Positions 4,436 through 64,000 of a DNA stretch of 64,000 nt are shown here, one piece after another. The stretch spans positions 558,001 through 622,000 of the forward strand of contig NZ_WNXZ01000003.1 of assembly GCF_009733845.1 (NCBI RefSeq), read 5' to 3'. This DNA is from Pseudactinotalea terrae (GTDB lineage: Bacteria > Actinomycetota > Actinomycetes > Actinomycetales > Beutenbergiaceae). Every line of letters starts with the position of its first letter. Positions within the stretch are counted from its first letter, which is position 1. The notes below the pieces were generated by a model, which saw only the letters and a program-made list of their open reading frames with translations, did no database searches and was not told the DNA's origin. Position numbers and translations under genes: made by a program.

Positions 4436-5195
4436 CGAGCCGCTGCGGTGCCACGGCGTGCTCGACCATGTGCTGGAACTGTGGGCTCGGTGCGATGCCG
4501 AGCTCGGCCTCGATCAGCCGGGCGTAGGAGCGTTGTGCGCGACGCGCCTCGGTGATGTTGTGCTCGGCGAGATGGCACTCGATCGCGACCTGGTGGGCGG
4601 ACTCGCGGAGCGGGTCCGCGGCGATCGCTGCCAGCGCGGCTCCGATCGCTTTGCCGTAGCTGCCGCGTGCCAGGAGGCTGCGAGCGAGCTCCTCGACGGC
4701 GTGGATCCACCCCTGCCGCAGCCGCTCGCGCTCGAGGCACAGCCAGTCGGCGTCGTAGCCCGGGACGAGCTCCCTGCCGAATCGGTCGGGGTCGACCAGG
4801 AGGTCGGCGGTGGTGGCGCAGCCGCTGAGAACCCGGTGCATCCACGCGGTGGCCTCCCAGTAGTCCACCTGGGTGCCGGGCGCGATCGAGACCTCGCTCA
4901 GATCGCCGTCCAGCAGGCCATGGTCGCGCTTGCTCAGCCGCCAGAGCGCTGAGCGCAGGTTGCCCCGGGCTCGCTGCTCGGGAACCTCGGGCCACAGCAG
5001 CCCGGCCAGCGCGGATCGCGACACGGGTGAGCGGTGCACAGCGAGATAGGTGAGCACGCCCACGGCGCCACCGGTCAGGGTGACCTCGCCGGTGCCGTTG
5101 CCGCACCTGAAGCCGCCCAGCAGCCTCAGGTGCCAGGTGGCCGTGCTGTCCTTCACGTCAACGACCGCCGGCTGCACGGCGCGGGGCGGGTTCAT
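4419..5195 (-). CDS. SARP/AfsR-type transcriptional activator (BTAD domain)
   Basis: The protein has 258 residues from the ATG preceded by GGGAGGT. Residues of about 20-110 form an OmpR-like winged-helix DNA-binding domain (LRLLGGFRCGNG, 'LTYLAVHRSPVSRSALAGLLWPE', 'ARGNLRSALWRL'). The second half is the bacterial transcriptional activation domain of TPR-like helices (YDADWLCLERERLRQGWIHA, 'ALAAIAADPLRESAHQVAIE', 'YARLIEAELGIAPSP'). SARPs activate secondary-metabolite and other clusters by binding direct repeats near promoters. Its place at the head of the injection-system operon suggests that it controls that locus, or is controlled with it. An upstream in-frame ATG would add 25 residues but lacks a ribosome site. 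Confidence 0.88.
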   Translation of the reverse strand: MNPPRAVQPAVVDVKDSTATWHLRLLGGFRCGNGTGEVTLTGGAVGVLTYLAVHRSPVSRSALAGLLWPEVPEQRARGNLRSALWRLSKRDHGLLDGDLSEVSIAPGTQVDYWEATAWMHRVLSGCATTADLLVDPDRFGRELVPGYDADWLCLERERLRQGWIHAVEELARSLLARGSYGKAIGAALAAIAADPLRESAHQVAIECHLAEHNITEARRAQRSYARLIEAELGIAPSPQFQHMVEHAVAPQRLVTAAG

Positions 5196-5294
5196 TCGAC
5201 CTCCCAGGCTCGATGCGCTCCGGGCGGTCGGGGGCGCACCGGTGCGCTGATGTCCATGAGGAGGCGACACCGCCGGCGCTGATACATCCGCCGA

Positions 5295-5321
5295 GTTCGT
5301 TGCAGACCGGCGCGTTCGTTG
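5295..5321. promoter_or_regulatory. direct repeat upstream of the SARP gene
   Basis: GTTCGTTG occurs twice, at 5295 and 5314, about 100-125 bases upstream of the SARP start. SARP proteins bind short direct repeats beside promoters. The 19-base period is not the usual 11 or 22, so this is only a candidate autoregulatory site. Confidence 0.2.
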
Positions 5322-5385
5322 GGTGCACCAGACGAACTCGACGATGTGGAACGCACTCGGCGTGGGGGGCGCCGGGCGCCGGGCG

Positions 5386-6522
5386 TCAGGGAAGGGGGCC
5401 GAGGAGGGCGCTCGCGACCGTGCTGTGGGCCGACTCGTCGTCGCTGGGATGGAACAGGCCGGCCAGGACGTCGCGGTACAGGCGGCTCAGCTCGTTCTTG
5501 GCGAAGTAGGAGCCGCCGCCGCTGACGCGGATCGCGGCCTCGACCACGTCCTTCGCGGTCTCGGTGGCGAGCACCTTGGTTCCGGCGAGCTTGGCGAACC
5601 AGCGGGGGCCGTGGTCGACCTGGTTGTCGACGTCGGCAGCGACCGCGTGCAGCTGCGTGGTCGCCGTCTCCAGGGCCATCGCGGCGGTCGCGAGGCGCCA
5701 GCGGATGTCGGGGTCGTGCGCGTAGACGTCGCCGGTCTTCATCGACGTCCTGGTCCGTACCGTCTCCACCGCGAGGTCCAGCGCGCGCTGCCCGATCCCG
5801 ACGTACACGCTCGAGAGCAGCAGCTCGAAGCACGCGAAGATCCCGAACACGAACGGGTCGGGGTTCGGGCCGGGTGGCAGGCGCCGCACCACGCGGTCGG
5901 CGGGGGCATGGGCGCCGTCGAGCACCGTGGTCCGGGACTGCGTGGCCCGCATCCCGAGGGTGTCCCAGTCGTCCTTGGTCTCGGTGCCCTCGCGCGTGAC
6001 GAAGCCGTACACGATGCGCGGGTCGTCGGGGTCGCTGTCGTCGAGGCCGTGCACGCCGAGCCGCGTCCAGGCCGGCGCCAGCGAGGTGAAGATCTTGGTG
6101 CCGTGGAAGCGGTAGCCGCCCTCGCCGTCCGGCACGGCGCTGGTGGCCGATCCGAACAGCACGAGATCGTTGCCGCGCTCGGAGATGCCGAACCCGAACA
6201 CCTCGCCCGCCGCAGCCTCGCAGAGCAGGAAGTCCAGCCCGCCGTCGCCCCGCTCGTGCAGCACGCGCGCGACGCCGCACCACACCTGATGCATGTTGGT
6301 CGCCAGCGCGGTGGCGGGAGCAGCCGCCGCGAGCCGGGACTGCTCGCGCACGAGCTCCAGCAGGCTCAGGCTGGCGCCGCCGAGGCCGGTGGGCACGTGC
6401 GCGGCGAGGTAGCCGGCTGCGGTCAGCGCCTCGAGATCCTCGGTGAAGAAGGTGTTGTCGCGGTCGTAACCAGGCGCACGGTCGTGGATCTCGGCCAGCA
6501 GGTCGTCAGGCAGGAAACTCAT
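5386..6522 (-). CDS. acyl-CoA dehydrogenase family protein
   Basis: The 378-residue protein is an FAD-dependent acyl-CoA dehydrogenase-like enzyme. The N-terminal helical domain (LAEIHDRAPGYDRDNTFFTED, 'AAGYLAAHVPTGLGGA') is followed by the beta-barrel domain (FHGTKIFTSLAPA, 'TREGTETKDDWDTLGMRATQS'). The C-terminal four-helix domain includes 'ERALDLAVETVRTRTSM'-like and 'ETAKDVVEAAIRVSGGGSYF' stretches. The last part matches members that desaturate or oxidise unusual acyl or nitrogen-containing substrates, so the substrate cannot be named. It is a single gene with no fatty-acid neighbours. The ATG at the MSFLPDD start was chosen because the family's first helix begins there; the upstream extension is Arg-rich and unlike the family. 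Confidence 0.85.
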   Translation of the reverse strand: MSFLPDDLLAEIHDRAPGYDRDNTFFTEDLEALTAAGYLAAHVPTGLGGASLSLLELVREQSRLAAAAPATALATNMHQVWCGVARVLHERGDGGLDFLLCEAAAGEVFGFGISERGNDLVLFGSATSAVPDGEGGYRFHGTKIFTSLAPAWTRLGVHGLDDSDPDDPRIVYGFVTREGTETKDDWDTLGMRATQSRTTVLDGAHAPADRVVRRLPPGPNPDPFVFGIFACFELLLSSVYVGIGQRALDLAVETVRTRTSMKTGDVYAHDPDIRWRLATAAMALETATTQLHAVAADVDNQVDHGPRWFAKLAGTKVLATETAKDVVEAAIRVSGGGSYFAKNELSRLYRDVLAGLFHPSDDESAHSTVASALLGPLP

Positions 6523-7637: not shown

Positions 7638-9481
7638 CGCCGCCCCCCGAGACGGGGCGGCACGAGACGGGGGATGGTTCCGTCGGCGTGCGCCCGCACG
7701 AGCAGGAAGGCACGTCGCAGCACCCGCAGCACCCCTCGGCTGCTGCGGCGACGCAGCTGTCACCGGCGTACCCGGCGCGGGCAGCGTGGGGGACCGCGGG
7801 TCGGCTGCGCGCCTGGCAGGCGGAGGCGCTGTCGTCGTACCTGAGCCGCTCGCCGCGTGACTTCCTCGCGGTGGCGACCCCCGGTGCCGGCAAGACGACC
7901 TTCGCGCTCCGGGTGGCCACCGAACTGCTCGAGACCGGCGTGGTGCGCCGGGTCACCGTGGTGGCGCCCACCGAGCACCTGAAGACCCAGTGGGCCGACG
8001 CGGCCGCGAAGGTCGGCATCAGCATCGACCCGAGCTTCCGCAACGCCCAGGGCCGCCACGGCGCGCAGTTCGACGGCGTCGCCCTCACCTATGCGCAGGT
8101 GGCCGCCAACCCGGCGCTGCACCGTGCCCGCACCGAGGCGGCGCGCACGCTCGTGATCCTCGACGAGGTGCACCACGGCGGTGACGCGCTCACCTGGGGT
8201 GACGCGGTTCGGGAGGCTTTCGAACCCGCGACCCGGCGGCTGGCGCTGACCGGGACGCCGTTCCGGTCCGACACCTCCGCGATCCCGTTCGTCACCTACG
8301 AGCGCGATGCCGACGGCATCCGGCGCTCGAGGGCCGACCACTCCTACGGGTACGGCGACGCGCTGCGCGACGGCGTGGTGCGGCCCGTGATCTTCCTCGC
8401 CTACACCGGGCAGATGCGGTGGCGCACCCGCGCGGGCGACGAGGTCAGCGCGCGCCTCGGCACGCCGATGACGAAGGACCAGATCGCGCAGGCGTGGCGC
8501 ACGGCGCTCAACCCCGACGGCGAGTGGATCGGGTCGGTCCTCAAGGCCGCCGACACCCGGCTCTCGGAGGTGCGCCGCTCGGTTCCCGACGCCGGCGGGC
8601 TCGTGATCGCGACCGATCAGGAGACCGCGCGTGCCTATGCCGGCCAGCTGCGGGCGATCACCGGCCAGCCGCCGGTGGTGGTGCTGTCCGACGACGCCGG
8701 CGCCTCCCGCCGGATCGAGGAGTTCGCGGCCGGGGACCAGCGGTGGATGGTCGCGGTGCGCATGGTGTCCGAGGGTGTGGACGTGCCGCGCCTCGCGGTG
8801 GGCGTGTACGCCACGGCGGCTGCGACCCCGCTGTTCTTCGCGCAGGCGATCGGCCGGTTCGTGCGTGCGCGCAAGCGCGGCGAGACCGCCTCGATCTTCC
8901 TGCCCTCGGTGCCGGTGCTGCTCGGCCTGGCCGGTGAGCTCGAGGCCGAGCGCGACCACGCGCTGGACCGCAAGGCCAGCGACGAGCCCGGCGAGGTGCT
9001 CCTCGACGACGCGGCGCTCGAGCAGGCCAACCGGGAGGAGTCGGCCAGCGACGACATGCTGTCCGGCTTCGAGGCGCTCGAGGCGAACGCGAGCTTCGAC
9101 AAGGTCCTGTTCGACGGCGGCGAGTTCGGGGTGGGCGGCGACGTCGGGTCCGACGAGGAGCTCGACTTCCTCGGGCTGCCGGGGCTGCTCGACGCCGACC
9201 AGGTGGCCACGCTGCTGCGGCAGCACCAGGCCCAGCACGTGGCGAGGTCGCCCCGCCGGGAGCAGGCGCGCGACGTCGTCGACCATCGCCGCCTCGGTGA
9301 GCTCCGCAAGGAGCTCAACCAGCTCGTCTCGGCGTGGTCGCGCCGGTCGAGCACCCCGCACGGCGTGCTGCACACGCGGCTGCGCCAGCACAGCGGCGGG
9401 GGAGAGGTCGCGACCGCCACGGCCGAGCAGATCGAGAAGCGGATCGAGAAGGTCCGCGCCTGGTTCATCGGGAAGAGCTGA
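7634..9481 (+). CDS. DEAD/DEAH-box helicase
   Basis: The product is a 615-residue SF2 helicase. About 60 disordered residues precede 'LRAWQAEALSSYL' (Q-like motif), the Walker A site 'TPGAGKTTFAL', the DEVH box in 'VILDEVHHGGDALTWGDA' and motif III 'LALTGTPFRSD'. The second RecA domain has 'MVSEGVDVPRLAVGVYATAA' and 'FAQAIGRFVRARKRGE' (motifs V and VI). The C-terminal 180 residues are acidic and then helical, with no recognised domain. It resembles the helicase part of type I/III restriction enzymes but has no nuclease or methylase neighbours, so it is a conserved actinobacterial helicase of unknown role. The GTG start overlaps the DUF3039 stop. Confidence 0.9.
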   Translation: MTPPPETGRHETGDGSVGVRPHEQEGTSQHPQHPSAAAATQLSPAYPARAAWGTAGRLRAWQAEALSSYLSRSPRDFLAVATPGAGKTTFALRVATELLETGVVRRVTVVAPTEHLKTQWADAAAKVGISIDPSFRNAQGRHGAQFDGVALTYAQVAANPALHRARTEAARTLVILDEVHHGGDALTWGDAVREAFEPATRRLALTGTPFRSDTSAIPFVTYERDADGIRRSRADHSYGYGDALRDGVVRPVIFLAYTGQMRWRTRAGDEVSARLGTPMTKDQIAQAWRTALNPDGEWIGSVLKAADTRLSEVRRSVPDAGGLVIATDQETARAYAGQLRAITGQPPVVVLSDDAGASRRIEEFAAGDQRWMVAVRMVSEGVDVPRLAVGVYATAAATPLFFAQAIGRFVRARKRGETASIFLPSVPVLLGLAGELEAERDHALDRKASDEPGEVLLDDAALEQANREESASDDMLSGFEALEANASFDKVLFDGGEFGVGGDVGSDEELDFLGLPGLLDADQVATLLRQHQAQHVARSPRREQARDVVDHRRLGELRKELNQLVSAWSRRSSTPHGVLHTRLRQHSGGGEVATATAEQIEKRIEKVRAWFIGKS

Positions 9482-11628: not shown

Positions 11629-12200
11629 AGGGCTTCGCGCGGCGGCGCGGCGTGTACGTGGCCACGCTCGATCGCACCGAGCGCACGATCCTGTCGCGGG
11701 TGGTCGCCGACACGGCGCTGCTGCTGGGTGTCAGGCTGGACGTCGAACGCCCGGAGGGCGACGCGGACCCCCTGGCCGCGCACGCCTGGTCGGCCGAGGG
11801 TCTCGAGGAGCCGAGCGACCCGGCGCTGGCTCGGCTGCTGCCGAGCGCCTCGGAGGACGACGGCGTCGCCGCCGAGTTCCGCCGTCTCACCGAGGGTGAT
11901 CTGCGCGCCCAGAAGGTGGAGCGGCTGCGGATGGTGTGGGGCGCGCTGCTCGCGCCGGGGGAGAAGATCGAGGTCCAGCCCGAGCGGGCGATGGATTGGG
12001 CGGCCGCCCTGACCGACGTGCGGCTCGTGCTCGCGGAGCGCCTCGACATCCAGACCGACGAGGATGCCGAGGCGGTCTACAAGGCAGCCAACCGGCGTCG
12101 AGCAGAGGACGACGACGTCCGAGCCGCCCTCGGCAGCCTGTACATGGTGCTGACCTGGCTGCAGGAGTCGTTGATGTCGGTGATGCTCAAGTCGCTCTGA
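11625..12200 (+). CDS. DUF2017 family protein
   Basis: This 191-residue protein is of the actinobacterial DUF2017 family, almost always encoded directly after clpS. Features are the N-terminal '[20 protein letters not shown]', a variable acidic middle, and a helical C-terminal half with '[20 protein letters not shown]' and '[21 protein letters not shown]'. It has no catalytic motif. Coupling to clpS through an overlapping GTGA suggests a role with protein turnover, but nothing in the sequence defines it. Confidence 0.9.
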
Positions 12201-12231
12201 GGCGGTGGCGCCGGCGCCCCAGCCATCGTCG

Positions 12232-12280
12232 GCTTCGGGGTGATCTCGGTCCAGCTGCTGACCCGTGAGCACCCCGAAGC
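12232..12280 (+). terminator. inverted repeat after clpS-DUF2017
   Basis: An 11-bp perfect inverted repeat (GCTTCGGGGTG / CACCCCGAAGC) encloses a 27-base loop, 32 bases after the DUF2017 stop. It probably ends that transcript. The long loop makes this less certain than the other stems. Confidence 0.5.
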
Positions 12281-12396: not shown

Positions 12397-13230
12397 GTGA
12401 GTGATGCACCGATCGGGATCTTCGACTCCGGCGTGGGCGGCCTGACCGTCGCGCGCGCGGTGATCGATCAGCTGCCCAACGAGTCGGTGCTCTACATCGG
12501 CGATACCGCCAACTCGCCGTACGGGCCGCAGCCGCTCGCGGACGTGCGAGCGCACGCGCTCACGGTCATGGACGATCTCGTGGCCGCGGGCGTGAAGATG
12601 CTCGTGATCGCCTGCAACTCGGCCTCCTCGGCGGTGCTGCGTGACGCGCGTGAGCGATACACGGTCGCGCAGGGCGTGCCGGTGGTCGAGGTCATCCTGC
12701 CCGCCGTGCGGCGCGCCGTTGCCGCCACCCGCTCGGGGCGCGTGGGCGTGATCGGCACCCAGGCGACCATCACCTCCCGCGCGTACGACGACGCCTTCGC
12801 CGCCGCTCCGCACCTGCGCCTGACGACGACGGCGTGCCCCGCCTTCGTGGACTTCGTCGAGCGGGGCCAGACCTCGGGCGACGAGCTGATCAGCCTCGCC
12901 CGCAGCTATCTCGCGCCGATCCTCGCAGCCGACGTCGACACCCTCGTGCTCGGGTGCACCCACTACCCGCTGCTCACCGGGGTGATCTCCTACGTCGCCG
13001 GTGACGGCGTCACGCTGGTCAGCAGCGCCGAGGAGACCGCGAAGGATGTCTACCGCACCCTCGTGGCGCACCACCTCTCTGCCGACCCGCAGGCCACCCC
13101 CACGTACCAGTTCCTCGCCACCGGTGACCCGAAGGCGTTCGACAGGCTCGCCCGCCGGTTCCTCGGCCCGGAGGTCGGTGCCCAGAGCGCAGCGGACATC
13201 ACCGGTGAGATCCCGAAGGTGGTCATCTAG
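12397..13230 (+). CDS. murI: glutamate racemase
   Basis: The 277-residue enzyme converts L- to D-glutamate for peptidoglycan. It has both catalytic cysteine regions: '[17 protein letters not shown]' with '[17 protein letters not shown]' at the start, and '[15 protein letters not shown]' in the second half. The GTG start at VSDAPIGIF fits family alignments. The next gene starts on the base after its stop, so murI and the metallo-hydrolase form a tight operon, as in many actinomycetes. Confidence 0.97.
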
Positions 13231-14004
13231 GTGCGTCTCGTCGTGGTCGGGTGCTCAGGCTCGGTGTCCGGACCGGACTCCGCGTCCTCCTCCTACCTGG
13301 TGCAGGCCGACGAGGGGGAACGCACCTACTCGGTGCTGCTCGACCTCGGCTCCGGGGCGTTCGGGCAGCTGCTGCGCTACGCACGGCCCGAGGACGTCGA
13401 CGCCGTGCTGCTCTCGCACCTGCACGCCGACCACGTGGTCGACCTCGCCGCCCTCGACGTCTACCTCCGCTACGGACCAGGTTCTCCGCACCATCAGATG
13501 CCGCTGGTCGGCCCGGAGGGGACCGATCGACGACTGGTCGAGCTCATCGGGGAGCCCGACGCCGGCACCTGCTCCTACGCGATCAGCACCTGGGCGGCGG
13601 GCACCCCGATCGAGGTGGGGCCGCTGCGCATCGAGCCGTTCGAGGCGCGCCACCCGGTGCCGGCGTTCGCGTTCCGCATCACCGGGCCCTCGGAGGACGG
13701 CACGGGCACCCGCGCCATCGTCTACACCGGCGACACGGACACCTGTGACAGCGTCACCGCCGCCGCGACCGGTGCCGACCTGCTGCTGGCCGAGGCCGCC
13801 TTCGAGGAGGACCGCGACGAGGTGCGCGGTATCCACCTGACCGGCCGCCGCGCCGGCGAGCTCGCGACGGTGGCCGCCGTCGAGCGTCTCGTGCTCACGC
13901 ACATCCCGCCGTGGACCTCGCGCGAGAAGGTGCGCGCCGAGGCGTGCACCGCGTACGGCGGCCCGGTCGATGTCGCCAAGCCCGGGGTCATCTTCGCGCT
14001 CTGA
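13231..14004 (+). CDS. MBL-fold metallo-hydrolase
   Basis: This 257-residue member of the metallo-beta-lactamase fold has the zinc-binding 'LLSHLHADHVVDLAALDVY', a metal-ligand Asp in 'IVYTGDTDTCDS' and a final His region in 'VLTHIPPWTSREKVRAEA'. The domain resembles RNase Z/ElaC-like and cyclic-phosphate-directed enzymes, but no tRNA-processing exosite is visible. It stands immediately after murI, a conserved actinobacterial pairing (the mycobacterial Rv1339 type, reported to act on cyclic AMP). That role is by position and similarity only. The GTG start directly follows the murI stop. Confidence 0.9.
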   Translation: MRLVVVGCSGSVSGPDSASSSYLVQADEGERTYSVLLDLGSGAFGQLLRYARPEDVDAVLLSHLHADHVVDLAALDVYLRYGPGSPHHQMPLVGPEGTDRRLVELIGEPDAGTCSYAISTWAAGTPIEVGPLRIEPFEARHPVPAFAFRITGPSEDGTGTRAIVYTGDTDTCDSVTAAATGADLLLAEAAFEEDRDEVRGIHLTGRRAGELATVAAVERLVLTHIPPWTSREKVRAEACTAYGGPVDVAKPGVIFAL

Positions 14005-14150
14005 GGCTGTGGTCCCTGTCACAGGGCGGGGCCGCGGGCCCGGGAGTTCGGCGCTGTTGCGGGGATCTCGCCGCTGCTGGGGCGCCTGCACACCGTCCGT
14101 TCCGTGACCGTAGGCACGCGGTCGGCTGAGTGCTCGCTACTCTCGCACGC

Positions 14151-16838
14151 ATGGCAGAGGCAACCGAGAACCTCGACACCGCGGCAAACGGCATCGCCAC
14201 CGGATCGCGCCTGGGCGCGGTGCTGGAGATGCCCGACGAGCTGCGTCACGACGTCCGGCTGCTCGGTGAGCTGCTGGGCACCGTCATCGCCGAGAGCGGC
14301 GGCGACGACCTGCTCGCCGACGTCGAGCGGCTCCGCGAGCTGACGATCCGCGCCTACACCGAATCGGGCTCCGAGGCGTTCGACCAGGCGGTCGCATTCG
14401 TCGATGACCTCAGCCTCGACCGGGCCGAGGAGCTGTCGCGCGCATTCACGTGCTACTTCCACCTGGTCAACCTGGCCGAGGAGTTCCATCGCATCCGGGT
14501 GCTGCGGGCACGCGAGGACGACGGCGGCGCTCGCCCGCCCGAGGACTCGCTCGCCGGTGCGATCGCCAAGCTCCGCGAGGACCTGGGCGAGGAGGAGACC
14601 CTGCGCCGGGTCGCCGAGCTGGAGTTCCGCCCGGTGCTCACGGCGCACCCGACCGAGGCTCGCCGTCGTGCGGTCGCGGCCTGCATCCGGCGCATCAGCG
14701 ACCTGGTCGCGGAGCGCGACGACCCGCGCCTGACGCACCGGGGCCTGGAGGAGAACCGCCGCGCGCTGCTCTCGGAGATCGACACGCTGTGGCGCACCTC
14801 GCCGCTGCGTCTCGACAAGCCGACGCCGCTCGACGAGGTCCGCACCGCGATGGGCGTCTTCGACGAGACCCTGTTCACGGTGCTGCCGCAGATGTACCGC
14901 CGCTTCGACGACCTGCTCGCAGGCGGGGACACCTCGGGGACCCGCGCCCCGGTGGTTCCGGCGTTCCTGCGGCTCGGCTCCTGGATCGGCGCCGACCGCG
15001 ACGGCAACCCCAACGTCACCGCCTCGCTCACGCGTGCGGCGGCCGGGATCGCCTCCGAGCACGTGCTGCTGGGGCTCGAGCGCGCCGCGGTGCGGATCGG
15101 TCGCGGCCTCACGCTCGACGCGGCCACCACCCCGCCGTCGCCGGAGCTCGAGGCGCTCTGGGCGCGTCAGCACCGCCTCGCCGAGGAGGTGACCGACGAG
15201 ATCGCGAGCCGTTCTCCCGACGAGCCCTATCGCCGCGTCATGCTCACGATCGCCGAGAGGATCGGCGCGACCCGCCGTCGGGATGCCGACCTCGCCTACG
15301 CGAGCGTGGACGAGCTGCTCGCGGACCTGCGCGTGGTCCAGGCAGCGCTCGCGAGCAGCGATCCGCGCAAGGCCTACGGCGAGGTGCAGTCGCTGATCTG
15401 GCAGGTCGAGACGTTCGGGTTCCACCTCGCCGAGCTGGAGGTGCGCCAGCACTCGGCCGTGCACGAGAAGACGCTCGCGGAGGTCGACGCCGGTGGTCAG
15501 CTCTCGGAGATGAGCGAGGAGGTCCTGGAGACCTTCCGCGCGATCGCCAGCGTGCAGCGCCGCTACGGCCAGCTGGGCGCGCGCCGCTACATCGTCTCGT
15601 TCACCACCAAGGCCCAGGACATCGCCAACGTGTTCCGGCTGGCCGAGGTCGCGCTCGGGTCCGGCGACGACGCGCCGGTCATCGACGCGATCCCCCTGTT
15701 CGAGACCTTCGAGGACCTGCAGAACTCCACGACGGTGCTCGACGGCATGCTCGAGCTGCCGCAGGTGCAGGCTCGGCTCGCCGCCACCGAGCGAAGGCTC
15801 GAGGTCATGCTCGGCTACTCCGACTCCAGCAAGGACGTGGGCCCCGTGTCCGCGACGCTCGCGCTGTACGAGGCGCAGAGCCGGATCGCCGAGTGGGCCG
15901 AGCGCAACGACATCACGCTCACGCTGTTCCACGGCCGCGGTGGTGCCCTGGGTCGTGGCGGCGGCCCCGCCAACCGGGCCGTGCTCGCACAGCCCCCCGG
16001 CTCTGTCGACGGTCGCTTCAAGCTGACCGAGCAGGGCGAGGTCATCTTCGCCCGCTACGGCGACCCGGTGATCGCCTCCCGCCACATCGAGCAGGTCGCG
16101 GCTGCCACCCTGCTGCAGGCCACCCCCGCGATCTCGGAGCGGAACTCGAAGGCGGCGGCGGACTTCGCCGATGTCGCTGCGACGATGGACGTCAGCTCGC
16201 GCGAGCGGTTCTACCAGCTCGTCCGGGCCGAGGGCTTCCCGCAGTGGTTCGCCACCGTGACACCGCAGGAGGAGGTCGGCTGGCTGGCGATCGGGTCGCG
16301 GCCCGCCCGCCGCGGGCTCTCGGTCTCCTCGCTCGATGATCTGCGTGCGATCCCGTGGGTCTTCGCGTGGACGCAGGCGCGGATCAACCTCACCGGGTGG
16401 TTCGGGCTCGGCACCGCGCTCGCGAGCGTCGGCGATGTCGACAGGCTGCGCGAGGCGTACCAGCGGTGGCCGCTGTTCGCGACGATGATCGACAACGTCG
16501 AGATGTCGCTGGCCAAGACCGACGTGCGGATCGCGAAGCGGTACCTGGCGCTCGGTGACCGTGACGACCTCGCCGACCTCGTGCTCGAGGAGATGGAGCT
16601 CACCCGGGACTGGATCGTGCAGATCACGGGTCAGGAGCGGCTGCTCGCCGGGCACCGCGTGCTCGGCCGGGCGGTGCAGCTGCGCTCGCCGTACGTGGAC
16701 GCGCTGTCGCTGATCCAGCTGCGCGCGCTCGCCGCGCTCCGCTCGGGTGACCACGACGACGCCGAGGACGCCAAGATCCGCCGGGTCATGCTCCTGTCCG
16801 TCAACGGCGTCGCCGCTGGGCTTCAGAACACCGGCTGA
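14151..16838 (+). CDS. ppc: phosphoenolpyruvate carboxylase
   Basis: The 895-residue enzyme adds bicarbonate to PEP to give oxaloacetate, feeding the TCA cycle. Key motifs are present: '[14 protein letters not shown]' (catalytic His region), '[15 protein letters not shown]', '[16 protein letters not shown]', '[20 protein letters not shown]' (the mobile catalytic loop and glycine-rich loop) and the C-terminal 'QNTG' that is invariant. Length is normal. The ATG at MAEATEN was chosen because no family homology extends further. It is a single-gene unit, followed by the repeat array. Confidence 0.98.
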
Positions 16839-16849
16839 TCGACCGACCG

Positions 16850-17090
16850 CCCGGTGGTGGCTCAGCGGCCACCAGGAGCCGGGGTGTGGACGCTCAGCCA
16901 CCGGCCGCCCCGCCCGGTGGTGGCTCAGCGGCCACCGGTGGCCGGGGTGTGGACGCTCAGCCACCGCCACCCACCCGGTGGTGGCTCAGCGGCCACCGGT
17001 GGCCGGGGTGTGGACGCTCAGCCACCGGCCGCCCCGCCCGGTGGTGGCTCAGCGGCCACCAGCAGCCGGGGCGTGGACGCTCAGCCACCG
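16850..17090. repeat. four-copy 61-63 bp palindromic (REP-like) tandem repeat
   Basis: Four units start near 16850, 16913, 16974 and 17037, with periods of 63, 61 and 63 bases. Each begins CCCGGTGGTGGCTCAGCGG and contains GTGTGGACGCTCAGCCACC. On the minus strand every unit reads GGTGGCTGAGCG ... CGCTGAGCCACC, an inverted repeat with one mismatch, so each can fold into a hairpin. Differences between units are a few bases at the unit centre and the unit junctions. It fills the gap between ppc and rph and may end or stabilise the ppc transcript. No open frame across it looks like a gene. Confidence 0.9.
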
Positions 17091-18635: not shown

Positions 18636-21600
18636 CTACAGGCTTCGACGACGCCGGCTGACCAGCACCAGGGCGAGCCCGGCGAGCAGCACCAGCCCGG
18701 CCAGCAGCGGAGCGGCGCTCCCGATCCCGGTGGTGGGCAGGTTCGTGCCGGCTCCTGCTGAGCTGTCGGTCGGGGTGCTCGAGCTCCCGGTCGGGGAGCT
18801 GTCCGTGGGTGTGCCATCGACGGGCGGCACGTCCGCGCGAGCGATCACGATCACCAGCTCGCCCGTCACCAGGTCGTCCACGGTCACCGTGAACGTGTAG
18901 GTGCCGGCCGTGGTCGGGGTCCCGGAGATCGCGCCGTCGGTGGACAGTGTCAGCCCTGGGGGCAGGTCGCCGGCGGCGAGCACCCAGGTGTGGTCCGGGT
19001 CCAGGCCACCGGTGGCCACCAGCTGGGCGCGGTAGGCGACGCCCACCGTTCCCGCGGGGAGCTCGTCGGTCGTGACCGTCAGCGGTGCGAACGGCGTGGC
19101 CTCGGCCGGCTGCGACGGGGCCGACTCGCCGACGGCGTTCACCGCGCTGACCGTGTAGAAGTACCTGGTCCGATTCGTCACGTCCGTGTCGGTGAAGGAG
19201 GTCGCGTCCAGCGGGTCGCCGGTCAGCGCCGTGCCGGGCACGCCGGGCTCGGTCGAGCGGTACACGAGGTAGCCGAGAACGGGGGACTGGCCGTCGTCGG
19301 CAGGCGGCGACCAGGTGAGGCCGACCGATCCGTCACCGGCGCTCGCCGCCAGGTCCAGCGGAGCCGTCGGGGCGGAGACGAACGTCACCAGCACGGGGGT
19401 CGTCAGCTCGGTGGCGCCGGCGACGGCGGTGTAGGTGACCTGCTCGGCCACGTCGTCGGTCACCGTGAAGGTGACGATCCCGTCGGCGTCGGAGGTCCCG
19501 CTCGGTGCAGAGATCTGGGAGCTGCCGCCGTCGGCGGTCAGGCTGACCTCCTCGCCGGCGACGGCGTTGCCCTGGGCGTCCCGGAGCGTCACCGTGATCA
19601 TCGAGGCGGCCAGGCCGTCCGCGGCGACCGTGGTCGGGTCGGCCGTCAGGGTCGACTCGGTGACCGAGACGGCGCCGGCGATGAAGGTCACCGTGGCCGT
19701 CGCGTCCAGCGCGAGGTCGTCGGCGGCGAGTGCCTGGATCAGCATGGAGACGACGGCGGGGCTCACCGTGGCGCCGTAGGTCACCTGTTCGGCGACCGTG
19801 CTGGCCACGGAGAACGTGACCCTCCCGTCACTGCCGGTGATCGCCGTGGGCGGTGAGATCACCGAGCTGCCGCCATCGGCGACCAGGGTGACGACCTGCC
19901 CCGGGACCGGGTTGCCGTGGGCGTCGACGATCACCGCGGTGATCCTTGAGCTGCTCTGGCCATCGGCGACGACGGTGGCCGGCTCGGCGGTCAGCGTCGA
20001 ACGGCTCACGGAGACATCGCCCACGGCGAACGTCACGGCTGCCGAGTCGTCGATCTCGGTGCCACCGGCCGTGGCGGTGTAGGTGACGTGCTCGGCCACG
20101 GTGTCGGTGACGGTGAAGGTGACGACGCCGTCGGCGCCGGAGAGGCCGCTGGGCTCGGAGATCGCCGAGGAGCCGCCGCCAGCGGTGAGGATCACCGGAA
20201 GGCCGGGGACCGGGTTGTCGTTCGTGTCCAGGAGCGTGACGGTGATCGTGGCGGCGCTCTCGCCGTCGGCGATGACCGAGGTGGGGTTCGCGGTGACGCT
20301 CGAGGCCGCCGGGGAGACGGCGCCGGGCGTGAACTGCACCCCAGCCGTCTGCGTCAGCGGGGTGTCGCCGACGGTCGCGGTGGAGATGACGTGCTCGGCC
20401 ACGGTGTCGGTCACGGTGAAGGTGACCACGCCGTCGCCGCCGGAGGTTCCGCTGGGCTCGGAGATGGCCGAGGAGCCGCCGTCCGCGGCCAGCGTCACGG
20501 ACTGGCCCGAAACCGGGTTGCCGGTGGCGTCGAGCAGCTTGACGGTGATCGTGGCTGCGCTCGTACCGTCGGCGGGCACCACGGCGGGCGCGGCCGTCAC
20601 CGTCGAGACGTCGGCGGAGATCGGGCCCGGCGTGAAGGTCACCACCGCGGTTTCGTGGAGCTGGGCCGCGCCGACGGTGGCGGTGTAGGTGACCTGCTCG
20701 GCCACGGTGCTCGTGACGCTGAAGCTGACCACGCCGTCGGCGTCCGAGGTCCCGCTGGGCTCGGAGATCGCCGAGGAGTCGCTGCTTGCGGCCAGCGTCA
20801 CGGCGTGGCCGGGAACCGCGTTGCCGGTGGCGTCGCGGAGGGTGACCGTGATCGTCGAGGTGCTCTCGCCGTCGGCGGTGACCGAGGTGGGGCTGGCGGT
20901 GACGGTCGAGGCGCTGGGAGAGACGGACCCGACGGCGAACGTGACGGTCGCGGTCTGATCGATCTGGGTGCCACCGGCGGTGGCGGTGTAGGTGACCTGC
21001 TCGGCCACCGTGCTCGTCACGGTGAACGTGATGACGCCGTCGGTGCCCGAGGTCCCGCTGGGCTCGGAGATCACCGAGGAACCGCCGTTGGCGCCCAGAG
21101 TCGCCGACTCACCGACGACCGGGTTGCCGTTCGCGTCGCGGAGGGTGACCGTGATCGTCGAGGCGGTCGCGCCGTCGGCGGGCACCTCGGTGGGGGTGGC
21201 GGTCACGGTCGAACCCGCGGCCGAGACCGGCCCGGCGGTGAAGGTGATACCGGCCGTCTGGGTCAGTGCGGCACCGTCGACCGTCGCGGTGACGGTGACC
21301 TGCTCGGCCACGGTGTCGGTCACAAGGAAAGTCAAAGTGCCGTCCATGCCCGACAGGCCATGCGGCGGCTCGGCGCTCGCACTGCCGGAGAGCTCCAGCG
21401 CGACGGTCTCCCCGACCATCGGCTGCCCCACGGTGTCCCTCACCGTCACCGTGACGGTGGATGCGCTGGTGCCGTCGGCGATCACGGTGGTCGGTGCCGC
21501 CGTCACGGTCGAGGCGTCCAGCGAGAGGCCCGCGGGTGCGATCGTGATCGACAGCTCCTGGTTGTCGGTCTGCAGGTTCGCATCGGTCACGGTGACGGTG

Positions 21601-58211: not shown

Positions 58212-58951
58212 CCGTCCTCGTCACCGGCGGCACCGGCACGCTGGGTCGACCGACCGTGGCAGCCTTGAGGGCCCAGCGCCACGAGGTCGCGGTGCTGAGC
58301 CGTAAGCCGGGAGCTGGCCACCGGGTCGCGAACCTCAGCTCTGCCGACGGCGTCGACGAGGCGCTCGACGGCGTGCGGACCGTGGTGCACTGCGCCACCA
58401 CCCGCTTCCGTGACATCGGGCAGACCGAGGTGCTCATCGACGCCGCCGAGCGGGCGGGCGTCGAGCACCTGGTGTTCGTCTCGATCGTCGGCGTCGATGA
58501 CGTCCCGTACTTCTACTACCGCGACAAGGTCGCCAGCGAGCAGGAGCTGATCGCCTCGGACCTGCCGCTGACGATCCTGCGCGCCACGCAGTTCCACGAC
58601 TTCGTCGCGGGCTTCCTCGCACCGCAGCGCCGGCTGCCGCTGCTGCTGGTCCCCGAGCTGCCGGTGCAGCCGATCGCGGTCGAGGACGTCGCCGACCGGC
58701 TGGCGGAGATCGTCGCCGGTCCGCCGCTCGGTCGCGCGGAGGACATCGGCGGTCCTCAGGTCCTCACCGTGCTCGAGGCGGCCCGGGTGTGGCAGCGCGC
58801 CCACGGTACCCAGCGCCGCATGCTGCCGGTGCCGATCCCCGGTGGCATGGGTGCCGCGTTCCGCGCCGGCCGCCACACCACCGGGCTGCCCGGCTACGGC
58901 CGCCGCACCTTCGCGGAGTACGCCGCCGATCACGCGGCCGCGGCACACTAG
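58208..58951 (+). CDS. NAD(P)H-binding atypical SDR protein
   Basis: The 247-residue protein is an NmrA/atypical short-chain dehydrogenase-like protein with 'TVLVTGGTGTLGRPTVAALR' (GxxGxxG nucleotide site), 'VVHCATTRFRDIGQTEVLID', 'HLVFVSIVGVDDVPYFYYRD' with Tyr and Lys, and 'LTILRATQFHDFVAGFLAPQ'. It may be a redox sensor or a reductase of unknown substrate. It is coupled to the thioesterase and followed four bases later by the NagZ-MurQ gene. Confidence 0.9.
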   Translation: MTVLVTGGTGTLGRPTVAALRAQRHEVAVLSRKPGAGHRVANLSSADGVDEALDGVRTVVHCATTRFRDIGQTEVLIDAAERAGVEHLVFVSIVGVDDVPYFYYRDKVASEQELIASDLPLTILRATQFHDFVAGFLAPQRRLPLLLVPELPVQPIAVEDVADRLAEIVAGPPLGRAEDIGGPQVLTVLEAARVWQRAHGTQRRMLPVPIPGGMGAAFRAGRHTTGLPGYGRRTFAEYAADHAAAAH

Positions 58952-58955
58952 CCCG

Positions 58956-61307
58956 GTGACCACCGATGTGACCGACCTTGAGCTCCGCCGCGCCGTCCAC
59001 GGCGTCCTCCTCGCCGCCTTCGACGGGACCGATGTGCCCGACTGGGTCCGCGAGGCCGAAGGGCTCGGCGGTGTCTGCCTGTTCGCGCAGAACACGCCCG
59101 ACCCGGCCACCGCGGCACGCCTCGTGACCGAGCTTCGCGCCGCGCACCCGCACCTGGTCGTCACCATCGACGAGGAGGGTGGCGACGTCACCCGCCTCGA
59201 GGCGGCAGGCGGCTCCAGCCTTCCCGGCGCCTCGGCGCTCGGTGTGCTCGACGACGACGCCACCACCCGGTCGCTCGGCCGCGCCCTGGGTGGTCTGCTG
59301 GCCGCGTGTGACATCGACGTCGCGCTCTCGCCGGTCCTGGACGTCGCCTCCAACGCCGAGAACGTCATGCTCGCCGCCCGCGCGATCGCTGCTGACCCGC
59401 AGGTCGTGGCCCGCCAGGGTGTCGCCCTCGTCGAGGGGCTGCAGCAGGCCGGGGTGGCCGCCTGCGCGAAGCACGCCCCCGGGCACGGCGACACGGCGGT
59501 CGACTCCCACCTCGGGGTGCCGACGCTCGATGTCGACCGCGCGACGCTCGAGGACCGCGAGCTCGTGCCGTTCCGCGCCGCGATCGCCGCCGGGGTCGAC
59601 GCGATCATGCTCGCCCACCTGATCGTGCCAGCGCTCACCGAGGGCCTCACCTCGCTGGATGCCGCCGTGCCCACGCTGCTGCGCGAGGCCGGCTTCGAGG
59701 GCGCGCTGATCACCGACGCCCTCGACATGGGAGCCGTGCTCGAGCGCACCGGCGATGACATCGGCGAGGCCGCGGTGCTCGCCTTGCTGGCCGGCGCCGA
59801 CCTGCTCTGCCTCGGCTCGCCGGTGCACATCGACGAGGCCACCTTCCGCCACGTCGTCGCCGGCGTCGAGGCCGCCGTGCGCTCCGGGCGGCTCCCGCTC
59901 GACCGGCTCGGTGAGGCCGGCAGGCGAGCCGCTGCGCTGCGCCGCCCCCGAACCGAGGCTCCCAGCATCGACGCGGCGCTCGCGGACCTCGTGCGCATCG
60001 GGCAGGATGCCACCCGCCGTGCCACCGGCCGGCGTGGCGACCTCACGCTCACACCGGGCGACGGCCTGCTCGACCTCCGCTTCCGTGCGGCCTATGCCGC
60101 CAGCAGCACGCACGGCATCGCCCCGGCGCTGCTGATCGAACGGCTGGGGCTGGTCGAGGGGGAGCCCGAGGGGCGTCGCGTCGCGGTCCTCACCAAGGAT
60201 GCGACGCCGGAGGTGGCAGCGCTGCTGAGCAGGCGACCGGACGCCGTCGTGATCCACGTCGGTTACCCGGGAGCCGCTCCCGATGCGCCGAACCTCGTGA
60301 CCGTCAACAGCGGTGGGCGTGCGAGCCTCCTCGAGGCCGTGCGGCTGTGCTCTCCCGACGGCGAGGGGCAGGGCTGGCAGGAGCTGATCGGGCTGCGTGC
60401 GCCGACCGAGGAGCGCAACCCGCGCACGACGGAGCTGGACACACTGGGCTCGGCCGAGCTCATGGCCGTCGTGCTCGCTGAGGACGCGACCGTCGCCGGG
60501 TCGGTCGCTGCAGCCGCCGAGCCGCTCGCCCGGCTCGTGGACGCGGGCGTGCACGCGCTCGCCCACGGCGGGCGCGTCCACTACGTCGGAGCGGGCACCT
60601 CCGGGCGGCTCGGTGCGCTCGATGCGGCCGAGCTGCTCCCCACCTACGGCGTGGGCGAGGAGGGTTTCGCCGCTCACCTCGCCGGTGGCCCCGGTGCGAT
60701 GCTGCGCGCCGTCGAGGGCGCCGAGGACGACGACGAGGCCGGGGCCGCCGCCGTCTCCGGCGTGGGTCCGCACGACCTGGTCATCGGCGTGGCCGCGAGC
60801 GGTCGCACGCCGTACGTCCGGGGTGCGCTCGCGGCGGCGCGCGCGGCCGGTGCCGCCACCGGGCTGATCTCGACCAACCCGCACGCCACGCTCGCGGAGG
60901 TGGTCGATGTCGCGGTGCTCATCGACTCCGGCCCCGAGGTCGTCACCGGGTCCACCCGCATGAAGGCCGGGACCGCCACGAAGATGGCGATCAACGCGTT
61001 CTCGACCGCGGTCATGGTGCGGCTCGGCAAGACCTACGGCAACCTGATGATCGACGTCGCCCCCACCAACGACAAGCTCCGTGCCCGGTGCGTGCGCATG
61101 CTGATGCAGGGCACCGGCGCCACCGCCGAGGATGCCGCCGCCGCGCTCGCCGAGGCGGGCGACATCCGCACCGCGCTGGTCATGCTCGGCGCCGACGCAC
61201 CCCTCGAGGCGGCACGTGCGGCGCTCGCCGCCAACCCGCCCGATCCCGCCCGCGCGGGCGACCCGGGCGGGGTGCGGTCCGCGATCGCGCGAGCCGCGGG
61301 ACGTTGA
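58956..61307 (+). CDS. fused beta-N-acetylglucosaminidase (NagZ) and MurNAc-6-P etherase (MurQ)
   Basis: The 783-residue protein joins two recycling enzymes. Residues 1 to about 470 form a GH3 NagZ-like domain: 'VVTIDEEGGDVTRLE', the general acid His-Asp pair in 'KHAPGHGDTAVDSHLGVP' (Asp 183, His 185) and the nucleophile Asp 254 in 'ALITDALDMGAVL'. Residues 478-783 form MurQ: 'EERNPRTTELDTLGSAELMA', 'YVGAGTSGRLGALDAAELLP' (SIS site with Glu), 'VASGRTPYVRGALAAA'-like and 'NPHATLAEVVDVAVLIDSGP'. One chain would cut GlcNAc-MurNAc and then open MurNAc-6-P to GlcNAc-6-P. No kinase or transporter lies beside it. The 3' end touches a 47-bp direct repeat. Confidence 0.95.
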   Translation: MTTDVTDLELRRAVHGVLLAAFDGTDVPDWVREAEGLGGVCLFAQNTPDPATAARLVTELRAAHPHLVVTIDEEGGDVTRLEAAGGSSLPGASALGVLDDDATTRSLGRALGGLLAACDIDVALSPVLDVASNAENVMLAARAIAADPQVVARQGVALVEGLQQAGVAACAKHAPGHGDTAVDSHLGVPTLDVDRATLEDRELVPFRAAIAAGVDAIMLAHLIVPALTEGLTSLDAAVPTLLREAGFEGALITDALDMGAVLERTGDDIGEAAVLALLAGADLLCLGSPVHIDEATFRHVVAGVEAAVRSGRLPLDRLGEAGRRAAALRRPRTEAPSIDAALADLVRIGQDATRRATGRRGDLTLTPGDGLLDLRFRAAYAASSTHGIAPALLIERLGLVEGEPEGRRVAVLTKDATPEVAALLSRRPDAVVIHVGYPGAAPDAPNLVTVNSGGRASLLEAVRLCSPDGEGQGWQELIGLRAPTEERNPRTTELDTLGSAELMAVVLAEDATVAGSVAAAAEPLARLVDAGVHALAHGGRVHYVGAGTSGRLGALDAAELLPTYGVGEEGFAAHLAGGPGAMLRAVEGAEDDDEAGAAAVSGVGPHDLVIGVAASGRTPYVRGALAAARAAGAATGLISTNPHATLAEVVDVAVLIDSGPEVVTGSTRMKAGTATKMAINAFSTAVMVRLGKTYGNLMIDVAPTNDKLRARCVRMLMQGTGATAEDAAAALAEAGDIRTALVMLGADAPLEAARAALAANPPDPARAGDPGGVRSAIARAAGR

Positions 61308-61352
61308 CCGGCTAGAGGTACATCCCGGGAGCGCGCTCCTCGGCCTTCACCG
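61306..61352. repeat. left copy of 47-bp direct repeat flanking the sulfur cassette
   Basis: This copy differs from 63700-63746 at one base (C at 61312). It begins inside the NagZ-MurQ stop codon (TGA) and corresponds to the last codons and stop of the AAA ATPase gene at the right end of the window, with that stop changed from TAA to TAG on the minus strand. It looks like a leftover 3' end. Confidence 0.95.
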
Positions 61353-61520
61353 CGGCGCCAGCAGCACATGGGGACGGTTCGGTATGACGAACCCAGCGGC
61401 GGCGTACGGCGTGGGAGGGCTCCACCCACCGATGGTCCGTTTCCCGTCGGGACCTTCGGCCCTGGCCTTCGAACACTCCCGGCGTAGCGTCGAGGTGACG
61501 GAACGGATCAGGAGATCCCC

Positions 61521-62807
61521 ATGAAGAACCTCGTCATTCTCGGCGCCGGAACGGCCGGGACGATGATCGCCAACAAGCTGCGGCACCGGCTCGACCGTGG
61601 CGGCTGGTCGATCACGATCGTGGACCGCGACGACGAGCACCACTACCAGCCGGGCTACCTGTTCGTCCCGTTCGGGAGGTACTCCCACGAGCAGGTCGTC
61701 CGGTCTCGGCACACCTTCCTCCCCGACGGGGTGGACTTCATGACGGCAACCGTCGACCGGGTCGATGCCGAGGCCAACGTCGTCCTCCTCGAGGACGGCC
61801 GACGCCTCGGCTACGACCAGCTCGTGATCGCGACCGGCACGACGCCGCGCCCCGGCCAGACGCCGGGGGTCCTCGACGGTGAGTGGCGCCGCAGCATCTT
61901 TGACTTCTACACCCTCGAAGGGGCCGAGGCCCTCGCCCGGGCGCTGCAGGAGCTGGACAGCGGTCGGCTCGTCGTGCACATCACCGAGATGCCGATCAAG
62001 TGCCCGGTGGCGCCGCTGGAGTTCACGTTCCTCGCGGACGACTGGCTGCGCAAGCGCGGGATCCGCGACCGGGTGGAGCTGGTCTATGTGACCCCGTTGG
62101 ACGGCGCTTTCACCAAGCCGGTGGCCTCGGCCCGCCTCGGAGGCATGCTCGACGAACGCAAGGTGCTGGTCGAGACCGACTTCATGATCGAGCGGGTCGA
62201 CCCCGAGCGAAAGATGCTCGTCTCCTACGACGAGCGCGAGATCCCGTTCGACCTGCTGGTCACGATCCCGCTGAACATGGGCGCGGACTTCGTCGCCCGA
62301 TCAGGGCTCGGCGACGAGCTCAACTACGTCCCGGTCGACCAGCGCACCCTGCTGTCGAAGAAGTACGACAACGTCTTCGCCGTCGGCGACGCCAGCGACA
62401 TCCCAGCCTCCAAGGCCGGCTCGGTGGCCCACTTCTCGGTCGAGATCTTCGTCGACAACTTCCTCGAGCACATCGCCGGGCTGCCGATGTCCGGCGCCTT
62501 CGACGGGCACGCCAACTGCTTCGTGGAGTCCGGCGACGGCAAGGCGCTGCTGATCGACTTCAACTACGACACCGAGCCGCTACCGGGCAAGTACCCCCTG
62601 CCGCTCGTGGGACCGATGGACCTGCTCAGGGAGACGCGCACCAACCACCTCGGCAAGCTCGCGTTCCGCTGGATCTACTGGAACGTCCTGCTCCCGGGCC
62701 GCCCCGTGCCCTTGCCGGCCTTGATGTCGATGACCGGCAAGCAGATGCCTCCAACGGAGATCACCCATACCCACCAGACCACCCGCACCGATCAGAGGGA
62801 GATGTAG
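61521..62807 (+). CDS. sqr: sulfide:quinone oxidoreductase-like flavoprotein
   Basis: The 428-residue protein has the FAD site 'NLVILGAGTAGTMIANKLRH' and 'IVDRDDEHHYQPGYLFVPFG' typical of SQR. Redox cysteines are Cys 161 in 'EMPIKCPVAPLEFTFLADDW' and Cys 333 in 'GHANCFVESGDG'. A second FAD contact is 'VFAVGDASDIPASKAGSV'. The C-terminal region 'LRETRTNHLGKLAFRWIYWN' is amphipathic and should dip into the membrane. It should oxidise sulfide to polysulfide and pass electrons to quinone. It leads a three-gene operon with an AGGAGA ribosome site. Confidence 0.92.
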   Translation: MKNLVILGAGTAGTMIANKLRHRLDRGGWSITIVDRDDEHHYQPGYLFVPFGRYSHEQVVRSRHTFLPDGVDFMTATVDRVDAEANVVLLEDGRRLGYDQLVIATGTTPRPGQTPGVLDGEWRRSIFDFYTLEGAEALARALQELDSGRLVVHITEMPIKCPVAPLEFTFLADDWLRKRGIRDRVELVYVTPLDGAFTKPVASARLGGMLDERKVLVETDFMIERVDPERKMLVSYDEREIPFDLLVTIPLNMGADFVARSGLGDELNYVPVDQRTLLSKKYDNVFAVGDASDIPASKAGSVAHFSVEIFVDNFLEHIAGLPMSGAFDGHANCFVESGDGKALLIDFNYDTEPLPGKYPLPLVGPMDLLRETRTNHLGKLAFRWIYWNVLLPGRPVPLPALMSMTGKQMPPTEITHTHQTTRTDQREM

Positions 62808-62810
62808 CAG

Positions 62811-63125
62811 ATGCCCGTCACGACCATCGCTGACCACGACATCCATGTCGACGCCGAAGGCTTCATGACCGAGTACGACGAGTGGAACCAGCAGCTGGGG
62901 GCCGCGCTCGCCGCCCAGATCGGGATCGAGATGACCCCCGAGCACTGGAAGGTGGTCGACTTCCTGCGCACCGACTACAAGGACCAGGGCGAGACGGCCA
63001 CGCTGCGGCGGGTTTCCACCGTGGGCGGGTTGCCCACCAAGCAGCTGTTCGTGCTGTTCCCCAAGAAGCCCGCCAAGAAGATGGCATACGTCGCCGGGCT
63101 GCCCAAGCCACGCGGCTGTGTGTGA
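62811..63125 (+). CDS. TusE/DsrC-like sulfur carrier protein
   Basis: The 104-residue protein has the TusE/DsrC fold: 'HDIHVDAEGFMTEYDEWNQQ', 'EMTPEHWKVVDFLRTDYKDQ' and 'TLRRVSTVGGLPTKQLFVLF', ending 'YVAGLPKPRGCV' with the conserved penultimate Cys 103. DsrC of sulfur-metabolising bacteria has a second Cys ten residues earlier. Here residue 93 is Tyr, so the protein can carry persulfide on one Cys but cannot form the DsrC trisulfide. It lies three bases after sqr and before a DsrE-like gene. Confidence 0.92.
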   Translation: MPVTTIADHDIHVDAEGFMTEYDEWNQQLGAALAAQIGIEMTPEHWKVVDFLRTDYKDQGETATLRRVSTVGGLPTKQLFVLFPKKPAKKMAYVAGLPKPRGCV

Positions 63126-63142
63126 GCCGGAGGAGACCTGAG

Positions 63143-63652
63143 ATGACCACCATCGAGAGCGCGCCGCTCGTCCCGTCGTTCGATGCGGAGGAGACCGACC
63201 GCAAGCTCGCGATCATCTGCTCCAAGGGCAACCTGGACATGGCCTACCCCGGCCTGATCCTGGCCAACGCGGCGCTCGGCGAGGGAGTGGAGACGCATCT
63301 GTTCTTCACCTTCTGGGGTTTCGACATGATCAACAAGAAGACGATGGGCGACCTGAAGTTCACGATGCTCGGCAACACCGCGACGCACATGCCGCAGGGC
63401 CTCGGCGGCCTGCCCGGTATGACCTCGATGGCGACCAGGCAGATGAAGAAGGCCATCGCCGATCTCGACGTCCCCGAGGTGCCGGAGTTCCTCCAGCAGA
63501 TCGCCGACTCCGGCGGCCACCTGTGGGCGTGCCGCATGTCCGCGGACATGCAGCACCTCGAGAAGGAGGACCTCTACGACGAGGTCGAGGACATCATCAG
63601 CGCCTCGGACTTCATCGAGAAGACCGAGGGCGCGCAGATGCTGTTCATCTGA
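63143..63652 (+). CDS. DsrE/DsrF-like (DsrE2-type) sulfur-transfer protein
   Basis: The 169-residue protein belongs to the DsrE/DsrF/DrsH-like family: 'DRKLAIICSKGNLDMAYPGL', 'EGVETHLFFTFWGFDMINKK' and 'SGGHLWACRMSADMQHLEKE'. Cysteines in 'IICSKG' and 'LWACRMSADM' are the likely persulfide carriers. The hydrophobic middle (residues 60-110) is of the DsrE2 type. It follows the TusE-like gene by 17 bases after a GGAGGAG ribosome site. With sqr and the TusE-like gene it forms a sulfide-to-carrier relay. Confidence 0.9.
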   Translation: MTTIESAPLVPSFDAEETDRKLAIICSKGNLDMAYPGLILANAALGEGVETHLFFTFWGFDMINKKTMGDLKFTMLGNTATHMPQGLGGLPGMTSMATRQMKKAIADLDVPEVPEFLQQIADSGGHLWACRMSADMQHLEKEDLYDEVEDIISASDFIEKTEGAQMLFI

Positions 63653-63699
63653 CCGGCATTCATCCGGGCAGGAGCCGCGCTTCCTGCACTCCCTCGGGT

Positions 63700-63746
63700 G
63701 ACCGGTTAGAGGTACATCCCGGGAGCGCGCTCCTCGGCCTTCACCG
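63700..63746. repeat. right copy of 47-bp direct repeat flanking the sulfur cassette
   Basis: This is the 3' end of the AAA ATPase gene, including its TAA stop (63706-63708, minus strand). It is repeated at 61306-61352 with 46 of 47 bases the same. The sulfur cassette lies exactly between the two copies. Confidence 0.95.
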
Positions 63747-64000
63747 GGGTGCTGGGCAGGTCGGTCGGCAGCAGCGTCCGGATGTCGTCCGGTGTGGGTG
63801 CCGAGAGGTCCACGATCCGCTGCGCCTGCAGCATCGTGGCCTCCTCGAACAGGTTCCGCACGAACCTGCCGTTGCCGAAGCTGGTGGGCCGCGGGCGGGG
63901 GAGAAGACGCCGGAACGCGTTCCCGACGCCGTCGGCCAGGTGATAGCCCGCCTCACCGGTGACGAGCTGGAAGATGCCCCAGAGCTCGTCGTCGTCGTAG
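63706..64000 (-). CDS. AAA family ATPase (CbbX/SpoVK-EccA-like), 3' end only
   Basis: The last 97 residues of a protein that continues beyond the right edge. 'ELWGIFQLVTGEAGYHLADG' and 'PTSFGNGRFVRNLFEEATML' with 'QAQRIVD' match the C-terminal lid of CbxX/SpoVK-type AAA ATPases, in which 'FGNGRxVRN' carries the sensor-2 Arg. The end is a short Pro-rich tail (APGMYL). The ATPase core is outside the window. The last 14 or so codons are the source of the duplicated 47-bp repeat. Confidence 0.82.
   Translation of the reverse strand, partial: YDDDELWGIFQLVTGEAGYHLADGVGNAFRRLLPRPRPTSFGNGRFVRNLFEEATMLQAQRIVDLSAPTPDDIRTLLPTDLPSTPVKAEERAPGMYL

Follow-up and report, generated by a model that had tools for sequence, protein, structure and literature searches.

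How did an operon of three genes come to lie between two convergent genes, both of them intact, with a copy of the end of one gene on either side? The window in which this arrangement occurs, the whole stretch of 64,000 nucleotides that was analysed, corresponds to positions 558001-622000 of contig C9 (NZ_WNXZ01000003.1) in a genome of 4.76 Mb and 15 contigs (G000). Positions without a contig name refer to the window. The operon is preceded by a gene which we take, following the sequence-only reading, to encode a NagZ-MurQ fusion protein (58842-61307, plus strand; longest open reading frame, the true start lying perhaps further downstream) and which ends with TGA at 61305-61307. On the other side, the minus strand carries the 3' part of an AAA ATPase gene (63706-64000).

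A 48-bp direct repeat around the operon

The sequence-only reading had described a 47-bp duplication of the ATPase 3' end that brackets the cassette. Alignment of the two copies bore this out and added one base pair: a direct repeat of 48 bp (61305-61352 and 63699-63746), identical at 47/48 positions, encloses sqr and dsrE2 with a tusE-like gene between them. As proposed, the ATPase gene whose 3' end is covered by the right copy is intact; its open reading frame continues beyond the window edge (63706-65757 in window coordinates, 683 aa). The left copy starts at the NagZ-MurQ stop codon and, again as described, is an orphan tail. Its single mismatch to the right copy, at repeat position 8, falls within the ATPase stop codon, which reads TAG on the left and TAA on the right. 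The insert between the copies measures 2346 bp (61353-63698) and consists of a 168-bp leader, the three genes and a tail of 46 bp.

A tandem duplication of the ATPase region, in which one copy decayed around a cassette that was already there, would likewise leave one copy as an orphan tail. We consider this very improbable. No ATPase remnant was seen outside the repeat, and the order of genes in a relative that lacks the cassette (G001, see below) largely contradicts such a history. A degraded ATPase gene between the copies, named beforehand as a refuting case, was rejected as a candidate, as a comparison of the leader with the ATPase gene gave nothing significant (best E 0.68).

The sequence-only reading had also suggested a search for the repeat elsewhere. 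Within the whole genome, the region 61200-64000 matched itself and three stretches of 30, 31 and 58 bp, and the idea that the cassette is a repeated unit of this genome was rejected. As an empirical control, 1.255 Mb of the same genome were scanned for direct repeats 400-20000 bp apart, using 16-bp seeds and keeping the best 22 pairs per contig. Among these best 22, the top pair in 400 kb of contig C7 was 22 bp long and exact. To judge by their spacing and sequence, the longer pairs found on C8 and C9 are probably tandem arrays, coding repeats or parts of much larger repeats. The scan also gave one weaker gene-tail-like pair (55/62) outside the window, at C9:492553-492614 and 494592-494653, whose copies lie about 2 kb apart near a tyrosine recombinase match at C9:490074. 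Other repeats were noted along the contig. Near the contig end, a 1295-bp stretch with tyrosine recombinase matches is directly repeated without a mismatch (C9:646457 and 651802, beyond the window); short tandem arrays of related GGTGGCTGAGCGTCCACC-type units occur at 16850-17090 and at C9:640396-640955; and repeats spaced 303 bp apart at 20050-21300 probably reflect a protein with repeated domains.

Gene families and leader of the operon

All three genes lie on the plus strand. The first (61521-62807) is assigned to the type III sulfide:quinone reductases (SQR) by family NF049943 (637.4 bits, cut-off 525), in the cysteine form: Cys161 and Cys333 are conserved in 89/89 alignment rows. A selenoprotein subtype of SQR with selenocysteine in an HxxU motif is listed in an excerpt of PMC13188914. 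The protein of the window reads HANC, with Cys333 and not selenocysteine, and 89/89 rows have cysteine at this position; HANC is likely the counterpart, by position, of HxxU. The second gene (62811-63125) encodes a TusE/DsrC-like sulfur relay protein (PF04358; TIGR03342 above cut-off) whose translation contains only the penultimate cysteine, with an alanine 11 residues before it. This is the pattern that an excerpt of PMC3397948 gives for DsrC/TusE-like proteins of organisms without DsrAB. The third (63143-63652) encodes a DsrE2-like sulfur carrier (PF13686; NF047629 below cut-off). The operon is likely a sulfide-oxidising unit with two sulfur carriers. In such a detoxification pathway SQR would oxidise sulfide and reduce quinone, and the sulfane sulfur would be passed to the DsrE2-like and TusE-like carriers.

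Both partner genes were matched within 3 kb of sqr in 88/89 loci, and the sqr-tusE-dsrE2 operons, mostly of Actinomycetota (L090-L098, L100-L179), have the same three gene families close together; what sets the window apart from them is the gene-tail repeat on either side. A literature search returned no paper with the full set of terms for the operon in actinobacteria, and we make no claim of novelty for either operon or scar.

The leader (61353-61520) contains GGGACCTTCGGCCC at 61449-61462, 5' of sqr, which resembles a DosR box. From about 61475 onward it aligns with the leader of a Nocardioides locus (L100). Upstream of sqr, a DosR-like box was present at 7/88 loci compared with 2/391 control stretches and a CsoR-like operator pattern at 11/88 compared with 1/391, enrichments that are no more than suggestive, since both patterns were picked after looking. 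The leader of the window lacks a CsoR-type operator and the insert lacks a CsoR-like gene, whereas L100 carries a gene for a CsoR-type repressor (PF02583) just upstream.

An empty site and the relatives of the operon

The comparison with close relatives that had been proposed revealed an empty site. In G001, a genome of the same genus, the ATPase gene (C2:68216-70264) and MurQ (C2:70288-71157) converge, the cassette is absent, and 2 bp separate the two stop codons as read off the sequence. Together with the intact neighbours in the window, this agrees with the proposed insertion that left its target gene restored. Over 41 bp aligned without gaps, the two repeat copies match G001 at 26/41 and 25/41 positions, while they match each other at 47/48. 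As the copies are far more alike than either is to G001, the duplication probably postdates the divergence of this lineage from G001. Gene conversion could also have kept the two copies similar, which makes this age less than firm, and a single difference between them permits no date.

The distribution of the cassette is patchy. An ortholog of sqr is present in 1/3 genomes of the genus, the best matches in G001 and G002 (E 1e-25 and 6e-9) being distant relatives. Neither of these two genomes yielded a tusE-like gene, which occurred in 10/59 genomes searched, our own included. Within the family (f1), a match to sqr below 1e-100 was found in 2/24 genomes, G000 and G003.

NagZ-MurQ orthologs are present in both G001 and G002. 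In G002 the search for the AAA ATPase gave no match at E 1e-100, the best being a domain match with 47% identity, and MurQ directly faces the acyl-CoA thioesterase gene TesB. Three of 16 further MurQ loci (L067-L082; flanks of 1.5 kb) included TesB, which lies across a short gap at L074 (G013) and about 0.75 kb away at the other two. The interval between MurQ and TesB hence varies as gene content differs between genomes: it is a short gap in G013 and G002, and ATPase and TetR genes lie in between in G000 and G001. Extra open reading frames between TesB and TetR in G001, whose translations suggest to us a LacI-type regulator and proteins of sugar transport, showed no comparable repeat around them.

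A tree of 89 SQR proteins, 88 of them different, placed the protein of the window with that of Nocardioides sp. CGMCC 1.13656 (L100; 85% identity, support 100/91). The pair then joins N. szechwanensis (L101; support 100/99), within a set of eight Nocardioides rows (support 95/91). The SQR of G003, a member of the same family, falls in a different clade with Georgenia. Because its sqr is nested among Nocardioides, the cassette was probably acquired horizontally; the closest sqr found, at only 85% identity, points to no donor. Base composition gives no clear signal: at 0.659 the GC content of the cassette falls at the 4th percentile of 1812 windows, yet its GC3 (0.93-0.96) is no lower than in three neighbours (0.86-0.92).

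Repeats at other loci and the mode of joining

Bracketing repeats were sought at other sqr loci. The starting set held 101 loci (80, 9 and 12 of a further 20, the other 8 being contigs already included; these 20 came from 28 genomes found, with 4 already in the set and 4 left out). After removal of one duplicate and 15 loci with short flanks, 85 remained. At a score of at least 24 within 6.5 kb, four loci (4/85) had a bracketing repeat and 81 had none, compared with 4/405 pseudo-cassettes in our own genome (3 distinct repeats). The difference is only suggestive, both for this threshold (Fisher, p = 0.034) and for scores of at least 40 (3/85 and 2/405, p = 0.039), as both tests are post hoc, uncorrected and made against an unmatched control.

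Two of the four brackets are gene tails (2/85). At L100 the tail (5793-5856) of an intact acyl-CoA dehydrogenase gene (4622-5875) occurs again at 12186-12249, about 80 bp past the dsrE2 stop, with 59/64 identical positions; between the tails lie Pfam CMD, MMPL and DUF302 genes, the CsoR-type repressor gene and the sqr operon. At L147, which comes from a metagenome bin, the gene concerned encodes an aldehyde dehydrogenase: an intact copy (12966-14402, minus strand) ends about 170 bp past dsrE2, and a tail of 309 bp from such a gene lies on the other side (7778-8086, matching 12952-13260 at 266/309). The remaining two were not counted as gene tails: L170 looks like a pair of paralogous genes that resemble each other across about 220 aa, while the repeat of L171 looks intergenic, short and palindromic. 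The tails of L147 differ at 44 positions in 300 bp, 34 of them third codon positions, and those of L100 at 14 in 83 bp, 9 of them third positions. With differences mainly at third positions, these tails look as if they had evolved as separate genes.

This divergence is what would be expected if incoming DNA carried a gene tail beside the cassette and a single crossover in that short homology, Campbell-like or by homology-facilitated illegitimate recombination, restored the gene and turned the resident tail into the orphan. The order of gene, 3' end, element and orphan tail in the window, L100 and L147 fits such a course as well. It is nonetheless an unlikely explanation for the window, where the near-identical tails would call for a donor tail from the same or a very near species, and the pattern recurs at only the two loci just described. 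In a wider and still less likely form, actinobacterial sqr islands would have been captured repeatedly at gene 3' ends, guided by tails and without a recombinase of their own, the last 50-300 bp of a resident gene being brought along or copied, so that this gene is made whole again and an orphan tail stays behind at the other end. Three cases fit: the AAA ATPase of the window, the acyl-CoA dehydrogenase of L100 and the aldehyde dehydrogenase of L147.

Integrase-mediated islands use att sites at gene 3' ends, and core lengths of 48 bp are typical of elements that integrate site-specifically. As in the window, such islands restore their target gene and leave an orphan tail at the far end. On this view the 48 bp would be attL and attR cores, and a tyrosine recombinase acting in trans would have moved the small non-autonomous element between them. 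The genome contains 11 tyrosine recombinase matches, of which the closest to the right copy is about 25 kb away. We regard this as unlikely. Profile searches and open reading frame translations recognised only the three cassette genes in 61353-63698 and no recombinase, integrase or transposase, in agreement with the sequence-only reading, and the related cassettes share no core: they use other gene tails or, at most loci, have no repeat at threshold. A single att site is hard to reconcile with the tails of the window, L100 and L147, which come from different genes and are unequal in length and divergence. A 25-bp core of the repeat had no exact match in viral contigs, and the ATPase loci of seven genomes (18-19 kb each; G001, G009, G017, G010, G014, G011 and G007) contained no second ATPase tail. 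In phage records the cassette DNA had no match, and the SQR-like proteins of six records were all below 60% identity. Plasmids gave SQR relatives that were likewise all below 60% and partial matches to cassette DNA in 11 records, covering at most 18% of the query. The compact cargo element suggested earlier is not supported as a unit that has ends of its own, given the 81 loci at which no bracketing repeat reached the threshold and the two whose tails come from other genes and have diverged. A mobile-element reading, though possible, is unnecessary; nothing found here points to a dedicated mobile cassette, and the locus looks like ordinary gene acquisition and not like a self-moving element.

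We think it rather probable that a foreign operon entered this lineage after the split from G001 and was joined by host recombination or repair, with a 48-bp duplication that spared both genes. The repeat, the empty site, the phylogenetic misplacement of sqr and the gene families are the observations on which this reading is based. The incoming DNA, 2.3 kb long and akin to the version in Nocardioides, would have brought the whole operon together with its leader, and would have been joined in the 4-bp gap between the convergent stop codons, by end joining at a staggered break or by homology-assisted joining, during which the 48-bp stretch across both gene ends was duplicated. A duplication that takes in both stop codons leaves both genes whole, which would explain how such an event persisted at so narrow a junction. 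Where only 4 bp separate the stops, nearly any insertion that lacks a duplication would cut a gene, so that survival bias may account for the position.

The genome encodes Ku (C7:383645) and a LigD-type ligase above the curated cut-off (C7:380971), about 1.8 kb apart, and an excerpt of PMC12169178 reports non-site-specific integration in Rhodococcus. Similar to the window, the variable segments with direct repeats that an excerpt of PMC2884548 ascribes to illegitimate recombination are small, repeat-based and free of mobile-element genes; most of their repeats, which come from E. coli, S. aureus and S. pyogenes, are shorter than 30 bp, whereas the window has 48 bp at a convergent junction. Against joining by the host it has to be said that integrases also leave a duplication at a gene 3' end. 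We argue that host recombination or repair explains the window, L100 and L147 more simply than a single att site. In the window, a staggered break followed by end joining and homology-assisted joining with DNA of a very near relative would leave the same footprint and are inseparable here. The third-position differences at L100 and L147, as if one tail had arrived with the DNA, are unlike a simple staggered break and suggest that the mechanism may be homology-assisted.

The locus thus presents a clean acquisition with its empty site, in which an operon entered a junction of few free bases and broke neither gene. If gene-tail duplications are common at acquired islands, they would provide a searchable scar of gene capture without an integrase.
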